NCBI RefSeq assembly: GCF_013283795.1
Contig: NZ_JABSOD010000008.1
Coordinates: forward strand, 49,063 to 113,062
DNA: 64,000 bases
Source: Rheinheimera lutimaris
GTDB lineage: Bacteria > Pseudomonadota > Gammaproteobacteria > Enterobacterales > Alteromonadaceae
Direction of reading: 5' to 3'
The translations under genes and the position numbers were made by a program. Each line of letters begins with the position of its first letter. The first letter of the stretch is position 1. The notes under the pieces are model-generated. The model did no database searches, was not told the DNA's origin, and was given only the letters and a program-made list of their open reading frames with translations. This document shows, piece after piece, positions 43,377-58,272 of this stretch.

Positions 43377-43796
43377 TTAGCCAGACATCCGCTGGCGCTG
43401 GTACATTTGCATCGCCAGTTCATCCTGCTGCTTTTGTTCACGCCGCTGCTGCTGCAGTTGCTGACGCTGCTGCCGTTGTTGCAGCAACTGCTCTATGGCT
43501 AAATTGTACGCCGCCTGCTTATTACAGGCTTGCTGCTGCGTGGCGGCTTCCTGCTCGGCCAGCGCGCTGCGCTGCTGCTGCTCTGCTGCCAGGTCATGCA
43601 TAATGTGCTTTAAGCCGGATAAATTCTGCAGGCTTAAACTGCAGAGCATTTGCTGATTATTTTCCAGGCTGCCGATATGTTGCGCCAGCAAATTACCGCG
43701 CTGTTGTTCCTGGCCGGCCAGCTGTTGCAGCCGGCTGTGGCGGCTGCGCATCGCATCGAAGTTATCTTGTTGTGTTTGCAGATATTTTTTAAGCAT
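43377..43796 (-). CDS. fliJ: Flagellar export chaperone FliJ-like (lateral system)
   Basis: This 139-residue protein is glutamine-rich and predicted to be one long coiled coil. It overlaps the fliI stop by 8 bp, which is the usual place for fliJ. FliJ sits in the export ATPase as a stalk-like subunit and handles chaperones. Sequence similarity in this family is weak, so the call rests on size, coiled-coil character and position. Confidence 0.75.
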   Translation of the reverse strand: MLKKYLQTQQDNFDAMRSRHSRLQQLAGQEQQRGNLLAQHIGSLENNQQMLCSLSLQNLSGLKHIMHDLAAEQQQRSALAEQEAATQQQACNKQAAYNLAIEQLLQQRQQRQQLQQQRREQKQQDELAMQMYQRQRMSG

Positions 43797-45117
43797 GCTG
43801 CGTCACCAAAGTTGCTAGCTGTTGTTCGGTTTCGGCAAAATCAACTTGTTGATTTAAGCCCTGACAGAGAAATTGTTCAATTTTAGGGTACAGCGCTACC
43901 GCCCTGTCCAGCTCGGTATCACGGCCGGCCTGATAAGCGCCCAGCGGGATCAGCTCCTGCACCTGCTGATAGCGGCTGTACAAGCGCTTTAAGCTGTAAC
44001 AGCTTTTCAGTTGTTGCTCCGACACAATATTCGGCATAACGCGGCTGATAGAAGCACCGATATCAATGGCCGGATAATGGCCACGCTCGGCCAGCTCGCG
44101 GCTTAATACCACGTGGCCGTCTAAAATAGCGCGTGCCGCGTCGGCTATTGGATCTTGTTGATCGTCACCTTCGGCCAACACGGTATAAATGGCTGTCATG
44201 CTACCGGTGCTGTCACTGCTGTTACCGGCACGCTCTACCAATTGGGTCAGCTTGCTGAACACCGACGGCGGATAACCGCGGGTGGCCGGCGGCTCCCCCA
44301 CCGACAACGCAATTTCACGTTGTGCCTGGGCATAGCGGGTTAACGAATCGACTAACAACAAGACATGCAGGCCCTGGTCACGAAACCAGGCGGCTAAACG
44401 GTGTGCCAGCTCGGCACTGCGCATACGCAGTAACGGCGATTGGTCGGCCGGGGCTGCCACCACTATGGCTTTTTTCATGCCATCGGCACCCAGGCTGTGT
44501 TCAATAAAATCTTTTACTTCCCAGCCACGCTCGCCCACCAAACCGACAATCACCACGTCTGCTGCGGTAAAGCGTGTCATCATGCCAAGCAATTTACTTT
44601 TACCCACGCCGGAGCCGGCAAACAGCCCCAAGCGCTGGCCCTGGCCTACGGTAAACAAGCCATTAATGGCTTTAATGCCGACATCCAGCGGCGTAGTAAC
44701 GCCTTTTTTCTGCATCGGGTTTACTGCCGCCAGCTGGCTGCTGATATGCTCGCCTTTGGTTAGCGCGGGGCCACCGTCCAGCGGCTGCATTAAGCCATCT
44801 ACCACGCGGCCAAGTAAGGCATGGCTCACTGTTAATGCCTGATCATGTGTTAGCGGCCGCACTCTGGCGCCGGTGGTTAACGCGCTGGCGTCGGTTAACG
44901 GCATTAAAAATGCCTGATCGCGGTCGAAGCCGACCACTTCGGCTTCAATCCACCGGCCGTGCTGGCCTTCTACCTGATAACGCTGGCCCAGCGTATACTG
45001 GCCGCCGGCCACGGTAAGGATCATGCCGTTTACCCGCACCAGGGTACCAAAACTCTGATGCAGCGGGCCGGGCTCCAGCTCTTGCGTGGCGTGTTGCAAA
45101 CGCTTAAGCAGTGACAT
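43789..45117 (-). CDS. fliI: Flagellar export ATPase FliI
   Basis: This 442-residue ATPase has the F1-beta-like core with Walker A in LGLFAGSGVGKSKLLGMM, VVIVGLVGERGWEVKDFIE, the Walker B region HVLLLVDSLTRYAQAQREIALS, and the FliI/SctN signature GEPPATRGYPPSVFS. It energises export of flagellar axial proteins at the base of the export gate. It overlaps fliH upstream and fliJ downstream. Confidence 0.95.
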   Translation of the reverse strand: MSLLKRLQHATQELEPGPLHQSFGTLVRVNGMILTVAGGQYTLGQRYQVEGQHGRWIEAEVVGFDRDQAFLMPLTDASALTTGARVRPLTHDQALTVSHALLGRVVDGLMQPLDGGPALTKGEHISSQLAAVNPMQKKGVTTPLDVGIKAINGLFTVGQGQRLGLFAGSGVGKSKLLGMMTRFTAADVVIVGLVGERGWEVKDFIEHSLGADGMKKAIVVAAPADQSPLLRMRSAELAHRLAAWFRDQGLHVLLLVDSLTRYAQAQREIALSVGEPPATRGYPPSVFSKLTQLVERAGNSSDSTGSMTAIYTVLAEGDDQQDPIADAARAILDGHVVLSRELAERGHYPAIDIGASISRVMPNIVSEQQLKSCYSLKRLYSRYQQVQELIPLGAYQAGRDTELDRAVALYPKIEQFLCQGLNQQVDFAETEQQLATLVTQHA

Positions 45118-45742
45118 CGTCTGCAGCCTGTAATTGTTGTTGCACCTGCGGCAACATGGCGGCTAAACGCTGGCGAAAATCCACCAGATGCAATTGCGCC
45201 GTGCCGACAAAGGCGGCGCTGCCGGGTGCCAGACTGTGATCGGCCTGCAGTAATACCGGCCCCAGCGCGCTGACATCCAACTGTTGCCATATGGCTAAAT
45301 CTTGCGGCGCTAAGCGCACTGCGCTGATGTGCTCATTAACCTGCAGCAATGGTAACAAGCTATGCACCGCTTGCTGCAAATGCGCCGGTTGTAAGCTTAA
45401 TTCAGCCTCCAGTGTACTTTCAGCCAGTTTGCTTACCAGTTCAAATATGCCAAGGGCTAACTGCTGTTCGTGTTGCTGCTGTTGGCCGGCCAGTTGTTGC
45501 TCTAACTGCGCCAGCTGCTGTTCAAACTGCTGACGTAGCGCGCGCACGGCCTGCTTTAACTGTTCGCCGGCTTCAGCCTGCGCTTGCTGCTGTGCCAGTT
45601 GTTGTGCCTGTTGTTTGCCCTCTTCTGCACCCAGCCGCTTACCTTCTGTCAGGCCACGTTCATAGGCCAACTGCAGTTGCTGCTCAATGCTCTGTTGCGA
45701 CATATCACGCTGTACACCGGGAAAACGATACACGTCAGCCAT
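45104..45742 (-). CDS. fliH: Flagellar assembly protein FliH
   Basis: This 212-residue protein has an N-terminal MADVYRFPGVQR segment, a glutamine/alanine-rich coiled coil (residues 20-95) and a FliH/V-ATPase-E-like C-terminal domain (LGIFELVSKLAESTLEAEL). FliH forms the peripheral stalk that holds FliI at the export gate. It lies 3 bp after fliG and overlaps fliI by 14 bp. Confidence 0.85.
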   Translation of the reverse strand: MADVYRFPGVQRDMSQQSIEQQLQLAYERGLTEGKRLGAEEGKQQAQQLAQQQAQAEAGEQLKQAVRALRQQFEQQLAQLEQQLAGQQQQHEQQLALGIFELVSKLAESTLEAELSLQPAHLQQAVHSLLPLLQVNEHISAVRLAPQDLAIWQQLDVSALGPVLLQADHSLAPGSAAFVGTAQLHLVDFRQRLAAMLPQVQQQLQAADDVTA

Positions 45743-45745
45743 AAC

Positions 45746-46765
45746 TTACCCCAGGGTCGCCTCTTCGTATAAGCGGTAGTCCACTTCACCTTTGGCCATC
45801 ATCTGACGGATCATCTGCATAATCTCTGCACGTGACGCTTCCACTTTGGTCACTGTTTGTGCTTTGGTGCCTTCAATTTGCTGGCGGTAGACCTGGGCTA
45901 AACGTTTTGGTAATGCCGCCATAATATTGTTCAGCAGTTCCGGCTCGCAGCCTTTTAATGCCACTACCCACAGCTCGTCCGGAATTTCGTTCAGCAAGTA
46001 CGCCAATACATCTTCGCTTTGCCGTGCCAGTGAGCCAAAATCGTACATTTTGTCCTGTACCGCTTCGGCCGTTACCGCATTGTGCTGCTTTAATAAATCC
46101 ATGATCTCGGCTTTATTGCCGCTGTAACGGTTCATTATTTCCGCCACTTTTTCCACGCCGTTAACCCGCGCGCCTACCTGTTCACCAACAAAGGCAATAC
46201 AGGCTTCCAACGTGTGGCGTAAATCGTCCATCACGTGTTCGCTAACTTCGCGCAGGCTGGCAATACGGTACAAAATGTCGTCATGCTTTTGCTTCGGGAA
46301 CAGCGAAATAACCGCTGATGCCTGCTCGGCCGGTAAAAATGCCAGCAGCAGCGCCTGCATTTGCATATGCTCCTGCTCTAAAAAGCGCGCCAACAGTTCA
46401 GCCGGCACCCATTCCAGCCGGCGGATATCATCGGCCAGGGCACCGCCGTAGATGTCGTCCAGCATGCCGCGGGCTAACTTGCGGCCTACGGCTCTGTCTA
46501 AGGCCCGCTCCAGATACACCCTTGAAGCGCCGCTAACGCCGCTTTCGTTGCGGTAGCAGTCAAAAAAGTCCTGCAGGATCAGCGCAACATCGTCTTGGGT
46601 AACATTGGCAATTTTTGCCATCCGCTCAGACAAGGCTTGCACTTCATGCCGGTTCAGTTTTTTGATAATGCCGGCGGCGTTTTCTTCGCCCATGCTCAGC
46701 AATAAAATGGCCGCCCGATCCAAGTCGGTAATGGTGCGGCCGGCTTCAGATCTTAGTTGATTCAA
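45746..46765 (-). CDS. fliG: Flagellar motor switch protein FliG
   Basis: This 339-residue rotor protein has all three FliG domains: the N-terminal RAAILLLSMGEENAAGIIKKL, the middle EQASAVISLFPKQKHDDILYRIA with the EHxM-type turn, and the C-terminal charged torque helix region (VVALKGCEPELLNNIMAALPKRLAQV). It binds FliF and meets the MotA-type stator. The start overlaps fliF by 20 bp. Confidence 0.95.
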   Translation of the reverse strand: MNQLRSEAGRTITDLDRAAILLLSMGEENAAGIIKKLNRHEVQALSERMAKIANVTQDDVALILQDFFDCYRNESGVSGASRVYLERALDRAVGRKLARGMLDDIYGGALADDIRRLEWVPAELLARFLEQEHMQMQALLLAFLPAEQASAVISLFPKQKHDDILYRIASLREVSEHVMDDLRHTLEACIAFVGEQVGARVNGVEKVAEIMNRYSGNKAEIMDLLKQHNAVTAEAVQDKMYDFGSLARQSEDVLAYLLNEIPDELWVVALKGCEPELLNNIMAALPKRLAQVYRQQIEGTKAQTVTKVEASRAEIMQMIRQMMAKGEVDYRLYEEATLG

Positions 46766-48479
46766 TGCTGACTCCCCGCTCTACCCAATATTTGATCACA
46801 GCCGTTACCCGCTCAGACTCTTTGCTGGCCAACAGCTGCATATGTGTAATTTGTTCAGCAAACTCAGACCCTACCTGCGGCAGACTGATGGCATTAAAGC
46901 CCGGTTGCGGCATATCGCTGTTGTCGGCGGCCATGCTGTCATCAGTGTCGCTGTTGCGCTTGGCACTGCTCTGCGCCGATAAGGCCGCTATAGCGTTGTC
47001 GTCTGCTTCGCCATACAGGGCATCCGGCTCTGTGGTACGCTGTTTTTTACCGCTGATAAGATGATTAACCAATGGCCGCACGCCAAACAGGATCAGTGCC
47101 AATGCAATTAAACTGGCGAACAAATACCGTGCATATTCTTTTATTTCAGGTAGTTGCCACCAGGGTAAGCCAGCCAGCGGCGCACTTACCGGGGCAGCGG
47201 CAACAAAGCCAAAACTGGTAATATTAAACTGATCGCCACGCTCGGCCTGAAAGCCGGTAGCGGTTTTTACCATCTCGCCCAATTGTTGCAGTTGTGCTTG
47301 TGTCCAGCCGGCATCTGCGGCAGCAGCATCATTAACCAATACCGATACGCTCATAGACTTTAACCTGCCTACTTCAAACCGTGTATGGGTGACGGCGCGG
47401 CCGTTATCGAACTGGCGGCTGCTTTCATTGCGCTCTGAAGTACGCTGGTTATTGTCTTCGGCTTGTTGATCTGCCGGTAACGGCGGCTGGTTTGCCAGTG
47501 AGCCCGGAATGCCCATCGCCAGTTGGTCCAGCATAGTGTCGGTTTTTACCGATTCAGACCGCACCACAGAAGCCGGGTCTATTGCTTCGCGGGTTTCTTC
47601 TACCACACTGAAATCGACATCTGACGATACCTGAATACGGTAGTTACCATCACCCAGAATCGGCAACAACATAATAGAGGCACGCTGTTCAATATTGCGC
47701 TCCAGCTTTTGTACAAAAGCCAGTTTTTTATCGGTTTCTTTACCTACCGGGGTTTCGTCGTACAACTCACCGGTCAGTAGCTTACCGCGTTGATCCACCA
47801 CCGATATTTTGCGCGGATCCAGCCCGGGCACACTACCGGCGATCAGGCTGACAATGGCTTCAACCTGGTTTGACTTTAACTCGTAACCCGGCGCTAAATC
47901 GACCATTACCGACGCAGCCGATTTTTCTTCCTGGCGGCCGACGAATAAATTGCGCTTAGGCACAGCTAAATGCACGCGGCTGTTGCGAATGCCGTCCATA
48001 GTAATAATGGTACGGGCCAGCTCGCCTTCCAACGCATGCTGATACTGCATCGATTCCATAAACTGGCTGGTACCCATAGTGACTTTTTCACCTATGGTTG
48101 ACAGCCCTTCCGGCATCGCCGCTTTAATGCCGCGTGCTGCCAGCGTAATACGCGCATCCGCTAAACGGTCTTGCGGCACCATAATATTGCCGCTGTCGGT
48201 GTCGATACGAAACGCCACCTTTTCTTTATCGAGGATTTCCAGAATACCGGCTTTATCGTAATGCTCCTGATTACCATACAGCGGTACATAATTTTTTGCC
48301 GAGGTCCATAAAATCAGCACTATCGTCGCCGCCACCAGGGTCGCCAGCAGTGCAATAGACGCTATACTGCGGTCACCACCCGGTAACCAACTGAACCGGT
48401 TGGACAAATTAATGACTTTCTCACGAAAGTTGCCCTCAATACTGACCGGGGGCATAGTTTTAACAACTTCACCTTTCAT
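46746..48479 (-). CDS. fliF: Flagellar MS-ring protein FliF
   Basis: This 577-residue protein has a membrane segment near the N-terminus (SIALLATLVAATIVLILW), a second one at about 440-460 (YLFASLIALALILFGV), and YscJ/FliF ring domains between them, including VPQDRLADARITLAARGIK and VHLAVPKRNLFVGRQEEKSAASVMVDL. The C-terminal tail binds FliG. It forms the base ring of the flagellum in the inner membrane. It is 10 bp after fliE. Confidence 0.95.
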   Translation of the reverse strand: MKGEVVKTMPPVSIEGNFREKVINLSNRFSWLPGGDRSIASIALLATLVAATIVLILWTSAKNYVPLYGNQEHYDKAGILEILDKEKVAFRIDTDSGNIMVPQDRLADARITLAARGIKAAMPEGLSTIGEKVTMGTSQFMESMQYQHALEGELARTIITMDGIRNSRVHLAVPKRNLFVGRQEEKSAASVMVDLAPGYELKSNQVEAIVSLIAGSVPGLDPRKISVVDQRGKLLTGELYDETPVGKETDKKLAFVQKLERNIEQRASIMLLPILGDGNYRIQVSSDVDFSVVEETREAIDPASVVRSESVKTDTMLDQLAMGIPGSLANQPPLPADQQAEDNNQRTSERNESSRQFDNGRAVTHTRFEVGRLKSMSVSVLVNDAAAADAGWTQAQLQQLGEMVKTATGFQAERGDQFNITSFGFVAAAPVSAPLAGLPWWQLPEIKEYARYLFASLIALALILFGVRPLVNHLISGKKQRTTEPDALYGEADDNAIAALSAQSSAKRNSDTDDSMAADNSDMPQPGFNAISLPQVGSEFAEQITHMQLLASKESERVTAVIKYWVERGVSIESTKI

Positions 48480-48489
48480 TACATTGTCC

Positions 48490-48807
48490 TTACAGTGACA
48501 TTCGCATCACGTCATCAATGCCGCTCAGTACTTTATTACGTACCTGTAACAGCATCGAAAAACTTAAATCGGCTTTTTGGCTGGCAACCATAGCGCCAAC
48601 CACGTCGTCACTACGGCCGGTGTCGACTGCAGTCATCAGATCGGCAGAAATATTCTGCTGTTGGTTTACCGCACGAATAACCTGCGTAAAATCAGTACTG
48701 ATGCCGCTGTCGTTACTGGCCGGGGCAATGTTTTCGCTGCCGGCAACCTGTTGCATCCGGGTCATCATTTGCAGCATCTGGCTTTGACTGTCTATCGGTG
48801 AAATCAT
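48490..48807 (-). CDS. fliE: Flagellar hook-basal body protein FliE
   Basis: This 105-residue protein ends with the conserved FliE region KADLSFSMLLQVRNKVLSGIDDVMRMSL and joins the MS ring to the proximal rod. It follows the lafK-type regulator by 11 bp, in the order lafK-fliE-fliF-fliG-fliH-fliI-fliJ seen in Vibrio lateral flagella. Confidence 0.92.
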   Translation of the reverse strand: MISPIDSQSQMLQMMTRMQQVAGSENIAPASNDSGISTDFTQVIRAVNQQQNISADLMTAVDTGRSDDVVGAMVASQKADLSFSMLLQVRNKVLSGIDDVMRMSL

Positions 48808-48818
48808 CCTGGGTATCC

Positions 48819-50135
48819 TTAAGAAGCTAATGCGTCTATGTCGACACCATGCTCGCGCATGGCAGCTATTTTGTAGCGCAGGGCACGAGTGCTGACACCC
48901 AACGCCTGCGCCGTACGGGTACGGTGGCCGTTAAACTTATTCAGTACATTTAAAATGTAATCAAATTCGGCGTCTTTCTTACTTTGTTTCAGCAAGCTGG
49001 CACAGATAGCAGCCGCTTGCGGGTGACATTGCGGTAAATTCAAATCAGCAATTTGCAGCTCGATACCCCGTGCCATTACTAAGGCGCGCTGCATAATGTT
49101 TTCCAGCTCGCGCACATTGCCCGGCCAGTTGTATTGCAGCATCACATCGGCCGCGCCACGGCTTAAACGGTATTTACCGTTGCCGTATTTATTAATAAAG
49201 AACTCTGCCAAGGGTAAAATATCATCACGCCGTTCGCGCAGTGCCGGCCAGCTCAGTGGCAACACATCCAGCCGGTAAAATAAATCTTCACGAAACAGGC
49301 CTTGCTCTACCTGGCTGCGCAGGTTTTTGTTACTGGCGGCAATAACACGAATATCCAGCTTAATGCGGCTGTTACTGCCCAGGCGCTCTACTTCGCGCTC
49401 CTGCAATACACGCAGCAACTTGGCCTGCAGCGCCAGTGGCAGCTCTGATATTTCATCCAGCAAAATAGTGCCGCCGTTGGCCGCTTCAAACTTACCAATT
49501 TGCTGGTTTACCGCACCGGTAAAGGCACCTTTGTTGTAACCGAATAACATGGCCTCCAGCATATGCTCCGGAATCGCAGCACAGTTCACCGCAATAAACG
49601 GTTTGTCGGCACGGTCTGATGCCTGATGAATAAATTGCGCCAGGCGTTCTTTACCGGTACCGGACTCACCCAGTATCAACACACTGGCTTCGGTTTGTGC
49701 CGCGCGGTTTGCCAATTGCAAGATCTGCCGGCTGGCATGCGATACCGCCACCAGATCCTTTAAGCCACGGCTCATAGCCGTCGCGTTGCGGATGGATGTT
49801 TTTAACTGCGAACAGAAAAAAGGCTTTAGTAAATAATCAATTGCGCCGCTTTGTAAGGTATCGGACGCTAACTCGCTTTGATCGTTACCGACCATACTGA
49901 TGATTTGCGCTGCCGGCAGCTTGCGACACACCAGGCTTACCAGATCCGGCAAGGCCATTTGTGGCAAGTCACAATCAATAAACGCCAGTGCGGGTTGATA
50001 GTCCTGGCACAGGCCAACAATTTCAGTAACCTCAGCCGTATGCAGCAGTTGGTAACCCTCGCTACGGATACATTGCTGTACTTCAGCATCCGGTTGCTGC
50101 TGTGCTATCCACAGCACATAATTCGCCTGGCTCAT
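48819..50135 (-). CDS. lafK: LafK-type sigma-54-dependent activator of lateral flagella
   Basis: This 438-residue activator has an N-terminal receiver-like domain (1-115), an AAA+ core with Walker A LILGESGTGKE, the sigma-54 contact loop GAFTGA and Walker B GGTILLDEIS, and a Fis-type HTH (HRTRTAQALGVSTRALRYKI). In the receiver, Asp54 and Lys104 are present, but the acidic pair that should end strand 1 is replaced by WIAQQQP, so normal Mg2+-dependent phosphorylation is doubtful. It is placed between motY and fliE as in Vibrio parahaemolyticus, where LafK switches on lateral genes. The likely target here is the sigma-54 promoter at 62875. The frame overlaps motY by 4 bp. Confidence 0.88.
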   Translation of the reverse strand: MSQANYVLWIAQQQPDAEVQQCIRSEGYQLLHTAEVTEIVGLCQDYQPALAFIDCDLPQMALPDLVSLVCRKLPAAQIISMVGNDQSELASDTLQSGAIDYLLKPFFCSQLKTSIRNATAMSRGLKDLVAVSHASRQILQLANRAAQTEASVLILGESGTGKERLAQFIHQASDRADKPFIAVNCAAIPEHMLEAMLFGYNKGAFTGAVNQQIGKFEAANGGTILLDEISELPLALQAKLLRVLQEREVERLGSNSRIKLDIRVIAASNKNLRSQVEQGLFREDLFYRLDVLPLSWPALRERRDDILPLAEFFINKYGNGKYRLSRGAADVMLQYNWPGNVRELENIMQRALVMARGIELQIADLNLPQCHPQAAAICASLLKQSKKDAEFDYILNVLNKFNGHRTRTAQALGVSTRALRYKIAAMREHGVDIDALAS

Positions 50136-51007
50136 TCTCCGGCCTCCTGTTGTGCAGCCGCCGGGCGTATCAGCCGTACCGTAACACGACGATTAGCCTG
50201 CTCTGCCTTGCCGTGGCTGTTCAGCTGCGGATAACGGTTGCCATGCGCCCGAATTTCCAACTTCGATGCCGCTACACCCAACTCAATGAGCTGCGCCGCC
50301 ACTTCATCAGCCCTTTCTTGTGATAACACGCGGTTAGCCAACACCGAGCCCACATCGTCGGTGTGACCGTCAATCAGAATTTTGTTAACAGAACGGTCCA
50401 GCTGCAGGTAGCGGGCCAGCTTTTGCAGTGCCGGCAGTTGTTGCCGGGTCAAAGTACGCTGACCGTCAGCAAACTGAATTTCAGTATCGCGGGCCTGCTG
50501 CCAGGATAACGGTGACATTTGCGCTACACAGCCACGAAACTGCTCAACCGCATCAGCACCGCTGACACTGGTTAACAGTATTTGCTGTTTATGCTGTGGG
50601 TCGCTCAGTTCAAACTGCAGCCAGTTACCAAACTGAATTTGCTGTAACAATGGTAAGGCGCCGGCGATAAAACTAACCCGCGCATCATGATATAACTCGG
50701 CCTGATAGGGTAAAGGTAGGGTCGCTGCTGTGGTGTTCTGCCAATCAGCCGGCCGCGCCACCACACTGGCTTGGGCCAACGCATAGTAAGGTTGAGCTAA
50801 TGCCAGATCCAGCCGCAGTGAGTGGCCGGGTTCTGCCAGAAAGCTGACATCACCTACGCCGTTAACTACTTGCTGTAACCGACAATGAAAAGCGCTGCTG
50901 TGCAACTGCCAGTCTGCCTGTTCTGCCGGTTGCACCAGTAACGCAGCCGCTAATGCACCGCCGGTGGCAGAGGCACTAAGCCAGAGACTCAGAGATAACA
51001 ATGACAC
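50132..51007 (-). CDS. motY: MotY-type flagellar OmpA-domain protein
   Basis: This 291-residue secreted protein has a signal peptide (LSLSLWLSASATGGALA), a MotY N-terminal domain (RLDLALAQPYYALAQASVVARP) and a C-terminal OmpA-like peptidoglycan-binding domain, ILIDGHTDDVGSVLANRVLSQERAD. MotY forms the T-ring that fixes stators; lateral systems of Vibrio have their own copy upstream of lafK. The start is a GTG at 51007 with AAGGA upstream, about 145 bp after a c-di-GMP riboswitch. Confidence 0.88.
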   Translation of the reverse strand: MSLLSLSLWLSASATGGALAAALLVQPAEQADWQLHSSAFHCRLQQVVNGVGDVSFLAEPGHSLRLDLALAQPYYALAQASVVARPADWQNTTAATLPLPYQAELYHDARVSFIAGALPLLQQIQFGNWLQFELSDPQHKQQILLTSVSGADAVEQFRGCVAQMSPLSWQQARDTEIQFADGQRTLTRQQLPALQKLARYLQLDRSVNKILIDGHTDDVGSVLANRVLSQERADEVAAQLIELGVAASKLEIRAHGNRYPQLNSHGKAEQANRRVTVRLIRPAAAQQEAGE

Positions 51008-51108
51008 ATTAATATCCTTTTAATTAACCACAACCGTTACCGCAAGGCAGCAACACCAAAAGTTGAAGAAAATAAAAGGAAAACCGCATAGAAAGCGCTC
51101 TGTTCTGT

Positions 51109-51149
51109 CACGGGCAGCCGTGCAGCCAGAGGCATACCCGAAGGATGCC
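51109..51149 (-). other. Two hairpins between the aptamer and motY (possible expression platform)
   Basis: GGCAT/ATGCC with an inner CC/GG pair (51131-51149) and CACGG-CTGC-CCGTG (51122-51109) follow the aptamer in the motY leader. Neither is followed at once by a T-run; a U-rich stretch comes about 25-45 nt later. How ligand binding would be turned into an effect is not clear. Confidence 0.45.
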
Positions 51150-51151
51150 GC

Positions 51152-51256
51152 TAAGCTAATGCAACCCCGCTATCGTAGCGTTTTTTATCAAAACGTCGTA
51201 GACCGGAGGCTTTGCGTCCTGCCCTTTCGGTGCAGTTTGCCTTTTAATTGTCTTAA
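51152..51256 (-). ncRNA. c-di-GMP-I (GEMM) riboswitch
   Basis: The minus strand carries the GEMM core in order. First comes AAGGCAAAC, then a stem CTGC(A)CC-GAAA-GGGCAG with the GNRA tetraloop. The hallmark GACGCAAAGCCTCCGG and CTACG follow, then a second stem and TAGCGGGGTTGC. This closely parallels the Vibrio cholerae Vc2 aptamer, which has GGGCAAACC, a GAAA loop, GACGCAAAGCCTCCGG and TAGCGGGGTT. TAAG at the 5' side and CTTA at the 3' side may close P1. It lies in the leader of motY-lafK-fliEFGHIJ, about 145 nt before the motY start. Cyclic di-GMP therefore probably sets expression of the lateral flagellar regulator. Confidence 0.9.
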
Positions 51257-51349
51257 CTGGTTCACAAAAAGCTATGCTATTTATGAACTAAAACTGAATA
51301 AATTAAAAGATAACTAATTTAGCACTGCAAGGCAAGCATCTTTTTTCAC

Positions 51350-51374
51350 AAGATCTTATTAGATCTTTAGGATC
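51350..51374. promoter_or_regulatory. GATC-rich palindrome upstream of the motY-lafK leader
   Basis: AAGATCT-TATT-AGATCTT (51350-51367) is a perfect inverted repeat with 7-bp arms. With the next GATC it gives three GATC sites at 51352, 51362 and 51371, spaced 10 and 9 bp. It lies about 100 bp upstream of the riboswitch and could be an operator or a Dam-methylation-sensitive site. Confidence 0.45.
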
Positions 51375-51589
51375 ATGTATTTGTGTCAGTATGTTTTTTC
51401 GCCAATTGTTACATTAGGCTTACAACTACTCTGACCAGCAGGGTCGGTTTTTGACTAACTATGTGCGAATAACTGCACAACTATCTAAACAGAGCCCCGT
51501 ATATCAGCGGTATATTAGCTGCCACTTATTACACCAACATGACAGCCGGAACAGGATCCGCTAACACTCAGCCAGGCCGTCAGCTGCCG

Positions 51590-53662
51590 TTAGCCAAGCG
51601 CACCTATCACATTAACCCGCACCGTTTCCGGAATTTCGTTATAAGACAACACCGCCAGCGAGTTCTGGGTAAACGTGCGGGCATAGCGTGCCAGCAGCGG
51701 CCGCAGTTGCGGCACTACCACCAATGCCGGAGTTAAACCCTGTTGCTGCATCTGGCTGCTGATCAGCGGCATATTGCGTTGGAATTGGCTTAGCAAGTTC
51801 GGCGCCACCGGGAAACTGTCCAGTGCAACTTTACCGGCTTGCATCGCCTGGTTCAGCGCACTTTGTAAGGTTTGCTCCAGCTTCTCATCCAGCGTAAAAG
51901 CACTCAACTCGTCTTTATCGCCACTGATTTGCCGTACCAGGGCCCGTTGCAGCGCACAGCGCACATCAGAGGTGAGTAAAATAGGATCCTTGGTAACTTC
52001 ACTGCTGTCGAGCAAGGTGCTGGCAATGCTGAGAATATCGCCCAGGCTAACCTGTTCACGCAGCAACAAGCGGTACACTTTCAGCTGTATTGTCGCCGTA
52101 AGCGCTTTATCCAGGGCTTCAGCCAATACCGGCGCCACTGCTGCCAAGCGCTTGTTCAGCTGTTTTACATCTTCATAAACAAACAGCTCAGATAAATTCT
52201 CTTTAATCACTTTACCGGCATGGGTAGCAATCACCGTGGCCAGATCCACCACCGAATAACCTAAATTTAATGCTTTAGCGCGGGTGTTGTTATCTATCCA
52301 CACCGCCTCCAGGCCGTACGCCGGATCGCGGGTGATCTCACCGTCCAACTGACCATAAATATCGCCGGTATTCAGCGCCAACAATTGCTGCGGGTTTAAC
52401 CGGCCGGTCGCCAGCGGCACCCCGGCTAACTTAATGCGGTATTCTTGCGGGTTAAGCTGCAAATTATCGCGCACCCGCACTTCCGGTAATAAAAAGCCAC
52501 TTTGCTCTGACAAGGTTTTACGAATACCGCGCAAGGTTTGCACCAGCTCTTCACCTTTGTCTTTATCAGCCAGATACACCAGCCGGAAACCCAGCTCGAT
52601 AGAAATACGGTCAACGTGCGGAATGTCTTCCCAGCGCAGCGCCGACGGCGTTTGCACTATGCTTTCCGTCAATAACTCCGCTTCGGCTAAATCGCCTTTG
52701 TCTACCCGCTGCTGCAGGCGCCAGGCGACATAAATCAGTGGTAAACCAAAGCCGATAAACGCCAGTGCCGGCATGCCCGGCACCACGCCGAGGATCAGCA
52801 TAATACCACCGGTAGTCAGCAGCACCCTGGGCGAGGCCAGTAACTGCCGGCCTACTTCATCCGACATCTCGCCTTCGTCGTTCATGCGCGTCACGATAAT
52901 GGCGGCAGCTACAGCCAGCAGCAGCGACGGAATTTGCGCTACCAGGCCATCACCTATGGTTAGCAACGCAAAACGCTGAAAAGCTTCGCCCATGCTCAGG
53001 CCGTGTTGGAACACGCCGATGCTGATACCACCGAGTAAGTTAATTACCAGAATAATTAACCCGGCAATGGCATCACCACGCACAAATTTCGAGGCACCAT
53101 CCATCGAACCATAAAAGTCGGCTTCCCGCGCCACCTCGTTACGGCGATCTTTTGCCTGTTCCGGGCCAATTAAGCCGGCATTTAAATCGGCATCGATTGC
53201 CATCTGTTTGCCGGGCAAAGCATCCAACGTAAACCGGGCAGCTACTTCAGAAATACGTTCGCCACCTTTGGTGATCACCACAAAGTTGATAACCATCAGA
53301 ATAACAAACACCACCATACCGACCACATAGTTGCCGCCGATGACCACTTCACCGAAGGCCTGGATCACACGTCCGGCTACGTCTGAGCCTTCATGACCGT
53401 GCAACAACACCACCCGGGTAGAGGCAATATTCAGTGTTAAGCGCATTAAGGTGGCTACCAGCAACACCGTAGGAAACACCGAGAAGTCCAATGGCTTTTT
53501 ACTCGATACCGCCACCAGCAGCACAATCACCGACAGTACTATGTTAAAAGTAAACAACGCATCCAGCATCCAGGCCGGCAGCGGCAATACCACCATCGCC
53601 AAAATGGCCAGCAGTAATACGGGTATAGCGGTATAAGGTTGGGTAAGAGTACGCCAGTTCAC
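51590..53662 (-). CDS. flhA: Flagellar export gate protein FlhA
   Basis: This 690-residue protein has about eight N-terminal membrane helices and a large cytoplasmic domain. Family signatures include LDALFTFNIVLSVIVLLVAV, LRLTLNIASTRVVLLHGHEG, FVVITKGGERISEVAARFTLDALPGKQMAIDADLNAG and RRNEVAREADFYGSMDGASKFVRGDA. FlhA is the proton-linked core of the flagellar export gate. It ends the long fliT-to-flhA unit. No obvious terminator follows. Confidence 0.96.
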   Translation of the reverse strand: MNWRTLTQPYTAIPVLLLAILAMVVLPLPAWMLDALFTFNIVLSVIVLLVAVSSKKPLDFSVFPTVLLVATLMRLTLNIASTRVVLLHGHEGSDVAGRVIQAFGEVVIGGNYVVGMVVFVILMVINFVVITKGGERISEVAARFTLDALPGKQMAIDADLNAGLIGPEQAKDRRNEVAREADFYGSMDGASKFVRGDAIAGLIILVINLLGGISIGVFQHGLSMGEAFQRFALLTIGDGLVAQIPSLLLAVAAAIIVTRMNDEGEMSDEVGRQLLASPRVLLTTGGIMLILGVVPGMPALAFIGFGLPLIYVAWRLQQRVDKGDLAEAELLTESIVQTPSALRWEDIPHVDRISIELGFRLVYLADKDKGEELVQTLRGIRKTLSEQSGFLLPEVRVRDNLQLNPQEYRIKLAGVPLATGRLNPQQLLALNTGDIYGQLDGEITRDPAYGLEAVWIDNNTRAKALNLGYSVVDLATVIATHAGKVIKENLSELFVYEDVKQLNKRLAAVAPVLAEALDKALTATIQLKVYRLLLREQVSLGDILSIASTLLDSSEVTKDPILLTSDVRCALQRALVRQISGDKDELSAFTLDEKLEQTLQSALNQAMQAGKVALDSFPVAPNLLSQFQRNMPLISSQMQQQGLTPALVVVPQLRPLLARYARTFTQNSLAVLSYNEIPETVRVNVIGALG

Positions 53663-56982: not shown

Positions 56983-57860
56983 TACTCCCGGGTGACGATA
57001 TCAGTGATTTGGAAAACCAGGCTGTTGGCTTCTTCTGCTACTTTGCCGAAAAACAGCCGTTCTTTATTCAGTTGCAGCGACATGGCGCTGTGTAATTCAA
57101 TCGGCAGCACGGCACCGTTCAGGCATTCCCGTAACTGACGCAGGCTCACCTTTTTGCGGGCCATTTCAATGCGGCACAGCACCGGTACCTGCGGCCATTG
57201 CGCCACATTGGCAGCCGGCACAGCCACACTGCTGTTGCTGTCATCCTGGTCGACAAAAAAGCTCAGCGGCAACCACAGATACCAGCTGATCGCGTCGCTA
57301 TCGAGTAACATCCGTACCTTTACAGGCAGGTACTGAAACTGTGCGGGTTCCAGCTGTTGCTTCACCGCCGAGGCCGGCAATACCGATTGTTCTTTAAACA
57401 ACAATTGCTGCATCGCCAGCAACTGCCGCTGTGCCACCCGGCTGCACACCCGCAACTCAGATGCACTGAGCTCGGTTTTATCTTCCAACTGCACTACCTT
57501 GCTCAGCTGACCGCCCAGCGCCAGATCAGCCAGGTGATGCACACCGGTGAAGTCCAGCGCGAAAAAGCAGTAACTGTCGGTGGGTACCAGTACCGGGCAT
57601 TGCAGTAACAAACGACCGGGTTCTGCCAGCCAGCTGTCCAGCCCGGTGCCGTGGCATAAGTTCATGTCAATACTGAACTCGACATCGTGCAGCAGCCGGC
57701 CCAGCTCAATTTCTACTGCCTGAGCCAACTCCGGCAACCGCTGCTTTGCCACCAGCAGGGCTTTGCTAAAACGGCGTTGGTCCAGCGTCAGCGCAAACGG
57801 CTGACACGCTGAGGCTAACGCCGCAGGGATAATGCTTGAACATGTCGTCATATTATTCAT
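56982..57860 (-). CDS. fliM: Flagellar motor switch protein FliM (lateral type)
   Basis: This 292-residue protein has a middle FliM domain and a C-terminal SpoA-like region (VPVLCRIEMARKKVSLRQLRECLNGAVLPIEL). It is shorter and more diverged than polar FliM, and the N-terminal CheY-binding helix (consensus LSQxEIDALL) is not seen at its start. The lateral motor may therefore not respond to CheY-P, as in lateral systems that do not switch. It overlaps the PilZ gene by 8 bp; an ATG at 57851 is an alternative start. Confidence 0.85.
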   Translation of the reverse strand: MNNMTTCSSIIPAALASACQPFALTLDQRRFSKALLVAKQRLPELAQAVEIELGRLLHDVEFSIDMNLCHGTGLDSWLAEPGRLLLQCPVLVPTDSYCFFALDFTGVHHLADLALGGQLSKVVQLEDKTELSASELRVCSRVAQRQLLAMQQLLFKEQSVLPASAVKQQLEPAQFQYLPVKVRMLLDSDAISWYLWLPLSFFVDQDDSNSSVAVPAANVAQWPQVPVLCRIEMARKKVSLRQLRECLNGAVLPIELHSAMSLQLNKERLFFGKVAEEANSLVFQITDIVTRE

Positions 57861-58272
57861 CTGCTGTTGCTTGCTCTGTCGTACCGCTGTCTCTCGACAC
57901 GCGGTAAGCTTTTTTACTTAAACGGCGAAGTAAATTCAGCCGCAGCTCGCGCTTGGCGTCTAACCAGCTCAGGCCGAGAAACACCAGCTTGTCGCTAACC
58001 TGACGCCGGTAAACCACCTCGGCTTTAATCCGCGTTTGACCGTCGTATTGCACCACGATCAGATCCGGCACCGTTTTGCTAACCGGAGCCAGCAGGCCGG
58101 CGCCGCCCAAACTCATATCCTTTACCACCGCCAGACAAATCTGGCTGCCAAACAAACCGCTTTGCAGCAGCTTTACCGGCACGCCTTTGGTTTGGCTTTC
58201 ATGTGGCTCATTGGCGGTACAGAAATACCAACGCAAATACTTGCGCGAAATCTCCGGCTTAGTTAACGGCAT
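57853..58272 (-). CDS. PilZ-domain c-di-GMP receptor within the motor operon
   Basis: This 139-residue soluble protein carries a PilZ domain. RKYLR at residues 10-14 fits the RxxxR arm, and DMSLGGAGLL fits D/NxSxxG. A beta-barrel core follows (VVQYDGQTRIKAEVVYRR, then KLVFLGLSWLD). PilZ proteins bind c-di-GMP; YcgR-type ones act on the flagellar motor. Its place between motB and fliM, overlapping both (14 bp and 8 bp), suggests a brake or tuner of this motor. The spacing between the two motifs is a little longer than usual, so ligand binding is likely but not certain. Confidence 0.8.
   Translation of the reverse strand: MPLTKPEISRKYLRWYFCTANEPHESQTKGVPVKLLQSGLFGSQICLAVVKDMSLGGAGLLAPVSKTVPDLIVVQYDGQTRIKAEVVYRRQVSDKLVFLGLSWLDAKRELRLNLLRRLSKKAYRVSRDSGTTEQATADE

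Follow-up and report, generated by a model that had tools for sequence, protein, structure and literature searches.

A c-di-GMP-I riboswitch before motY and lafK

The window, the whole 64-kb stretch of Rheinheimera DNA that we analysed, carries on its minus strand a run of flagellar genes that opens with motY and lafK, and the 582-nt gap between motY and the next gene upstream, flhA, contains a complete riboswitch aptamer. From upstream to downstream, the features of the locus are as follows.

51590..53662, minus: flhA, the next upstream gene, on the same strand (FHIPEP PF00771, TIGR01398)
51252..51257, minus: 5' strand of P1 (GTTAAG), predicted from sequence and alignment to pair with 51155-51150 (CTTAGC)
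51157..51251, minus: complete c-di-GMP-I riboswitch aptamer (RF01051 covariance model)
51150..51155, minus: 3' strand of P1 (CTTAGC), pairing predicted on the same basis
50132..51007, minus: motY, which opens the operon and starts with GTG (MotY_N PF18393 and OmpA PF00691)
48819..50135, minus: lafK, sigma-54-dependent activator of lateral flagella (Response_reg, Sigma54_activat and HTH_8, a Fis HTH)
43377..48807, minus: fliE, fliF, fliG, fliH, fliI and fliJ, the same run further downstream (domains and ORF list)

The motY and lafK reading frames overlap by 4 nt, and the gene order motY-lafK-fliE is present. FliE and FliF were named from domain matches and fliG to fliJ from reading the ORF list; the naming of the run as motY-lafK-fliEFGHIJ in an earlier, sequence-only reading of this DNA agrees with the domains of MotY, LafK, FliE and FliF, the remainder following from the ORF list. 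The lafK product is one of 42 LafK-level matches (at least 479 bits) in the order. Because a second FlhA, 49% identical, lies on another contig of the same genome and further sigma-54 activators are found elsewhere in it, the locus is one of two flagellar systems. Two other features of the window touch this region: a terminator-like hairpin on the opposite strand (51428-51447, plus) between flhA and the riboswitch, and a gene for a PilZ-domain protein beside motB (57853-58272, minus), in the position described for FilZ in Pseudoalteromonas lateral clusters in the accessible part of PMC10304486. It is possible that this PilZ-domain protein is a second c-di-GMP input to the same lateral system.

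A cmscan of the 64-kb window matched RF01051, the c-di-GMP-I (GEMM-I) family, at minus 51251-51157 with 69.3 bits (cut-off 35, E 1.7e-11), aligned over model positions 1-87 of 87. RF01051 was the sole Rfam family above cut-off in the window, cmscan having left out one overlapping match of lower score from the same clan, and a whole-genome search placed the aptamer at the same site (E 2.5e-13), with a match in 0/14 control genomes. Of 22 Rfam consensus base pairs, which form the P2 and P3 helices, 21 are standard in the window sequence. The aptamer has G at position 20 and A at position 47 in Vc2 numbering, and a C that we took by eye for C92 is present in the alignment; G20, A47 and C92 are the ligand-contact residues. 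It lies on the same strand as motY and ends 149 nt before its GTG. The sequence-only reading had recognized here, from four GEMM core blocks in order on the minus strand, a c-di-GMP-I riboswitch spanning 51152-51256; all four blocks are present, the covariance-model score bears out the class at full length, and the span equals the aptamer plus 5 nt on either side. The close likeness to Vibrio cholerae Vc2 that it drew is apt by the sequence blocks. Covariance model, synteny and conservation together show that the leader of the master operon for lateral flagella carries a c-di-GMP-I riboswitch.

The genome has three further RF01051 copies, which precede genes for a DUF3718 protein (L004), an ShlB/FhaC-type two-partner secretion transporter and a 441-residue lipoprotein-like protein without a Pfam match (the latter two being L002 and L003), so the organism probably uses the c-di-GMP-I class for several surface functions. 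Across 31 Rheinheimera genomes we inspected 61 of 62 RF01051 matches, the one omitted (G009:C39:349-444) lying near a contig end. The commonest setting, in 31 of these 61, is before a gene for a small exported protein (L004, L024-L028, L030-L033 and 21 of the 38 loci L159-L196), identified as DUF3718 by Pfam in L004 and by sequence similarity, judged by eye, in the others.

Conservation of the riboswitch at LafK loci

The riboswitch stands before motY in all eight of the closest relatives (seven Rheinheimera and one gammaproteobacterial metagenome-assembled genome). In one of these, L034, the element was matched by RF03167, a sister family of the same clan, at 59.4 bits (cut-off 59), and the same place scored 68.9 bits against RF01051. 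The riboswitch also precedes motY in Aestuariibacter (L042) and Colwellia (L043), and no riboswitch was found at four MotY loci outside lateral systems (L044-L047); this search among MotY relatives covered loci other than the 40 numbered L048-L087. LafK is present in 10 of the 31 Rheinheimera genomes, and the riboswitch lies before motY in exactly those 10; the other 21 genomes gave no LafK-level match. Conservation before lafK across genera and this co-occurrence with LafK within Rheinheimera (10/10) support the view that the element controls the lafK operon, as the sequence-only reading had proposed with no direction of switching given.

We then surveyed 394 genomes of the order, separating LafK from FlrC by score (at least 479 bits versus at most 437 bits), which gave 42 genomes with a LafK-level match. 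One locus first scored as FlrC, L142, sits in the Vibrio/Shewanella/Ferrimonas clade and has no riboswitch, so a few divergent LafK may have been missed by this split. L123, on a contig ending at lafK, was left out of the counts, leaving 41 testable loci, and 28 of these have RF01051 or RF03167 above cut-off upstream of lafK: 3/3 in Rheinheimera, 1/1 in another genus of its family, 4/4 in Gallaecimonas, 11/12 in Aeromonas, 5/5 in a sister genus of the Aeromonas family, 3/3 in Moritella and 1/6 in Shewanella. None was above cut-off in Ferrimonas (0/2) or Vibrio (0/5). When the 13 negatives and Vibrio campbellii were searched permissively, the family gave a single sub-threshold match, of 28.3 bits, in the lafK leader of the twelfth Aeromonas (L116:1180-1270), where the aptamer is possibly a decaying riboswitch. 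The Aeromonas and Moritella loci were assigned from close LafK sequences (92% and 94%). One family (f2), considered as E. coli Flag-2, was matched by none of 20,395 E. coli records and belongs to Moritella, with LafK 94% identical. In Aeromonas the riboswitch lies just before lafK with no motY between, and the distance from aptamer to start codon was 78-307 nt in the 36 leaders measured, a set that omits the riboswitch-bearing Aeromonas leader L125, whose start codon is unclear, as does the analysis of Shine-Dalgarno (SD) opening below.

In a phylogeny of 47 LafK and FlrC rows, two changes suffice to account for the riboswitch label, against a shuffle mean of 11.2; near-copies among the rows favour such a low count. 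All negatives except one Aeromonas form a single clade (96/93), L142 included. Read with FlrC as outgroup, this pattern fits an ancestral riboswitch that would have been lost once before the divergence of Vibrio, Shewanella and Ferrimonas, the root resting insecurely on long outgroup branches (93/85). The one Shewanella LafK with a riboswitch (L102) groups with Aestuariibacter, as if it had been acquired. The same position of the riboswitch in Aeromonas, Gallaecimonas and Moritella implies old, shared control. In precomputed Pfam annotation, LafK of Shewanella and Ferrimonas (L136 and relatives) mostly has no receiver domain (PF00072), and that domain is listed for LafK of Aeromonas, Moritella, Rheinheimera and many Vibrio.

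A candidate translational switch and its rivals

Four elements lie between the aptamer and motY.

51071..51096, minus: conserved anti-aptamer strand, GCTTTCTATGC[AGC]GTTTnCnTTTTATT, a near-complement of the aptamer 5' half
51069..51079, minus: the end of that strand (CCTTTTATTTT) that can pair with the motY SD region, its anti-Shine-Dalgarno part
51035..51055, minus: hairpin immediately upstream of the SD, with a 9-pair stem
51016..51022, minus: motY SD region (TAAAAGG), from sequence, invariant in 10 leaders

In the 10 Rheinheimera leaders, 23 of the 26 positions of the anti-aptamer strand are invariant and the rest of the spacer is variable; the strand is longer by one base in L019 and L041. 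It is complementary to the aptamer 5' half at 16.5-17 of 20 positions in each leader, which none of 60 shuffles equalled. Its 3' end, CCUUUUAUUU, complements the ribosome site of motY, where the window has a repeat of the UUAAAAGG found in the aptamer itself. The anti-SD end matches the SD at 10-11 of 11 positions in eight relatives, with 0-1 of 200 shuffles as good; the match is 9/11 in the window (equalled by 11/200 shuffles) and in L034 (12/200). In L019 both sides have changed together (CCTTTTATTGC with GCAATAAAAGG), a covariation, and L041 preserves the match with a different sequence (CTTTTTATTTT with AAAATAAAAGG). Two G-U pairs of the SD-upstream hairpin in the window are A-U/U-A in L034, as read from the alignment. 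A 21-codon leader peptide (ATGCGGTTTTCC..., from 51089) was considered and rejected: by eye, the frames past codon 8 differ among relatives, so the conservation looks like that of RNA rather than protein.

Riboswitches before other genes were compared in the same way. Nine of 19 paralogues have an anti-aptamer complement above all 60 shuffles, and in the four DUF3718 paralogues the complement did not exceed all 60. Seven copies have AAAGGG for AAAAGG; five of these (L173, L181, L184, L191 and L195) have an extra C in the strand, and L002 and L169 have none. Among 11 Aeromonas leaders, the complement exceeded 60/60 shuffles in two (L124 and L126) and 59/60 in L117. When the aptamer 3' end was tested by duplex energy against the whole downstream region, shuffles scored alike in most leaders.

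The anti-strand, SD complement and folding pattern of the lateral leaders lead us to propose, with somewhat better than even confidence, that the Rheinheimera element switches OFF the translation of motY and also, because the two genes overlap by 4 nt, that of lafK. The conserved downstream strand, CUUUCUAUGC(A/G)GUUUUCCUUUUAUUU, would have two partners, the aptamer 5' half (UUAAAAGGCAAACUGCACCGAAAG) and the motY ribosome-binding site. Without c-di-GMP, the strand would unfold the aptamer and the ribosome site could stay open; with c-di-GMP, the aptamer would hold, and the released strand would mask the ribosome site of motY. High c-di-GMP, as in the biofilm state, would then block LafK and with it the entire lateral-flagella programme. 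A strand shared between the aptamer and SD masking is found in the Rheinheimera leaders, more weakly in the window itself.

We folded the 10 leaders with four flank lengths each. With the aptamer imposed, the SD was buried (mean unpaired 0.00-0.08) in 40/40 runs; with the aptamer free, it was more open by at least 0.1 in 30/40 runs, mostly those with short flanks, and in three of the four window runs. At flank lengths of 30-60 nt, the SD remained closed without ligand in 10/20 runs, so the predicted switch is context-dependent. When the site was instead taken as -14 to -4, an interval that leaves out some of the SD, openness fell by 0.1 or more in only 4/10 Rheinheimera and 6/26 other leaders, and it rose slightly in some, such as L043. 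We infer that support for an SD-masking platform is confined to the Rheinheimera leaders. With the transcript cut at the U-tract, the unconstrained minimum, an anti-aptamer fold wherever the structure was printed, was in 10/10 leaders more stable by 9.5-14.5 kcal/mol than a terminator fold that retains P2. The prediction of an OFF switch comes from free energies, a calculation in which tertiary contacts and kinetics lie outside.

These energies bear on the main rival, an ON switch by termination, which was our first mechanism and was demoted after the SD-strand comparisons, the SD folding and the terminator energies. In that mechanism the 3' end of the ligand-free aptamer (GGGGUUGCAUUAG), paired with CUAUGC(A/G)GUUUUCC of the same conserved strand, would form a terminator before UUUUAUUUU; ligand would keep the aptamer closed and the operon read, and surface contact that raises c-di-GMP would turn lateral flagella on. 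In a scan retaining the best three hairpins per leader, 8/9 Rheinheimera leaders scanned had one that runs up to the U-tract, at -27.6 to -38.4 kcal/mol; the exception was L036, from R. pacifica DSM 17616, whose leader closely resembles that of the window. Similar folds occur in 3/4 Gallaecimonas (L103, L104 and L106), and weak aptamer-end hairpins (-5 to -8) with a U-run in 3/11 Aeromonas (L108, L115 and L125). Further CAAGGC/GCCUUG hairpins were seen by eye, and the paralogues L160 and L162 have a compensatory G-C to A-U change between ACATTAG and CTATGTAG. The terminator fold is nevertheless the costlier one in every leader, termination leaves the SD complementarity and its covariation unexplained, and its direction is opposite to the Aeromonas swarming phenotypes described below. 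We therefore regard the ON mechanism as unlikely, if still worth weighing.

The two other alternatives concern the ligand and the transcript. The aptamer may be real and its ligand another cyclic dinucleotide, or switching may have been lost. Colwellia L043 (7732-7829) and Shewanella L102 (3787-3876) have A for G at position 20 in Vc2 numbering, a position that bears on cGAMP recognition; this A may alter their choice of ligand, and some relatives (L034, L111 and L113) are listed under the RF03167 variant. The window, however, keeps G20 and A47 and scores well against RF01051, and the element is kept in every LafK-bearing Rheinheimera genome, which makes this alternative highly improbable. The riboswitch transcript could instead be minor for lafK, for example LafK-driven or ending before motY, with the operon controlled mostly elsewhere. 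A scan of 50950-51650 found no promoter-like site on the minus strand, and a passage of PMC6963403 places motY-lafK-fliE of V. parahaemolyticus among the LafK-activated class II genes. Against this stand the riboswitches kept just before lafK where no motY intervenes, in Aeromonas, and the 78-307 nt to the start codon in the leaders measured; we consider a minor transcript highly improbable. The translational OFF switch remains the reading that we prefer.

Known c-di-GMP systems and the meaning of the element

The riboswitch class is known, and its conserved place before motY/lafK is apparently undescribed. A literature search whose scope lay largely outside subscription journals found no riboswitch before lafK or motY, in agreement with the sequence-only reading, to which the motY-lafK case was unfamiliar; the element is possibly listed elsewhere, for example in Rfam member lists or the original GEMM papers. 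Vc2 (GEMM-I), before Vibrio genes of the tfoX/tfoY type, has the same aptamer class but another target gene (Vibrio targets are given in the accessible part of PMC6366702), whereas the Rheinheimera element precedes the operon of a flagellar master regulator. Cd1, before the flgB operon of Clostridioides difficile, is likewise a class I riboswitch over early flagellar genes that is OFF with c-di-GMP, according to passages of PMC6366702 and PMC9262584; it acts through a transcription terminator in a Gram-positive, peritrichous organism, whereas the Rheinheimera element would act on translation in a sigma-54 lateral system. In the pilM riboswitch of Geobacter metallireducens, aptamer and expression platform are mutually exclusive, as proposed here, but its ligand is cGAMP, and it turns expression ON through a termination mechanism (PMC9262584, in part). 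Aeromonas hydrophila, of the same genus as 12 of our LafK loci, has c-di-GMP riboswitches of this class before fimbrial and chitinase genes, and the PMC6366702 passage that describes them includes no lafK copy.

The same signal reaches swarming or lateral flagella through FlrA2 and MotL in Shewanella putrefaciens and FilZ in Pseudoalteromonas (passages of PMC9061725 and PMC10304486). These are protein effectors, unlike the RNA element, and FilZ favours swarming through its action on the polar flagellum; in Shewanella the riboswitch is absent from 5/6 LafK loci. Swarming of Aeromonas is inhibited when GGDEF domains are overexpressed and promoted when EAL domains are (PMC5247445, in part). In A. 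veronii, loss of function of arrS raises c-di-GMP, and the mutant's swarming is 5.7-fold below wild type (PMC11841396, in part). A phosphodiesterase promotes lateral flagella in S. putrefaciens, as its authors think via FlrA2 and MotL (PMC9061725, in part). These Aeromonas and S. putrefaciens phenotypes fit OFF control, although protein brakes, such as PilZ proteins, could explain them alone.

Taken together, we tentatively suggest, at slightly less than even confidence, that the riboswitch is ancestral in LafK lateral flagella and is the missing direct c-di-GMP shut-off of swarming in Aeromonas, Rheinheimera, Moritella and their kin, that it was lost once in the Vibrio/Shewanella/Ferrimonas lineage, and that in Rheinheimera it works through an SD that copies the aptamer 5' strand. 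If this is true, Vibrio, Shewanella and Ferrimonas rely on protein effectors, so the riboswitch would have gone unseen in the model organism. The block of Aeromonas swarming by c-di-GMP is described in the accessible text of PMC5247445 only as an overall effect, which a riboswitch before lafK would explain directly, in a single step. Such an element would also mean that the Vibrio lateral system, the starting point of most of the literature consulted, is without a control common to its relatives, and it would tie the decision for biofilm or swarming to a single RNA.
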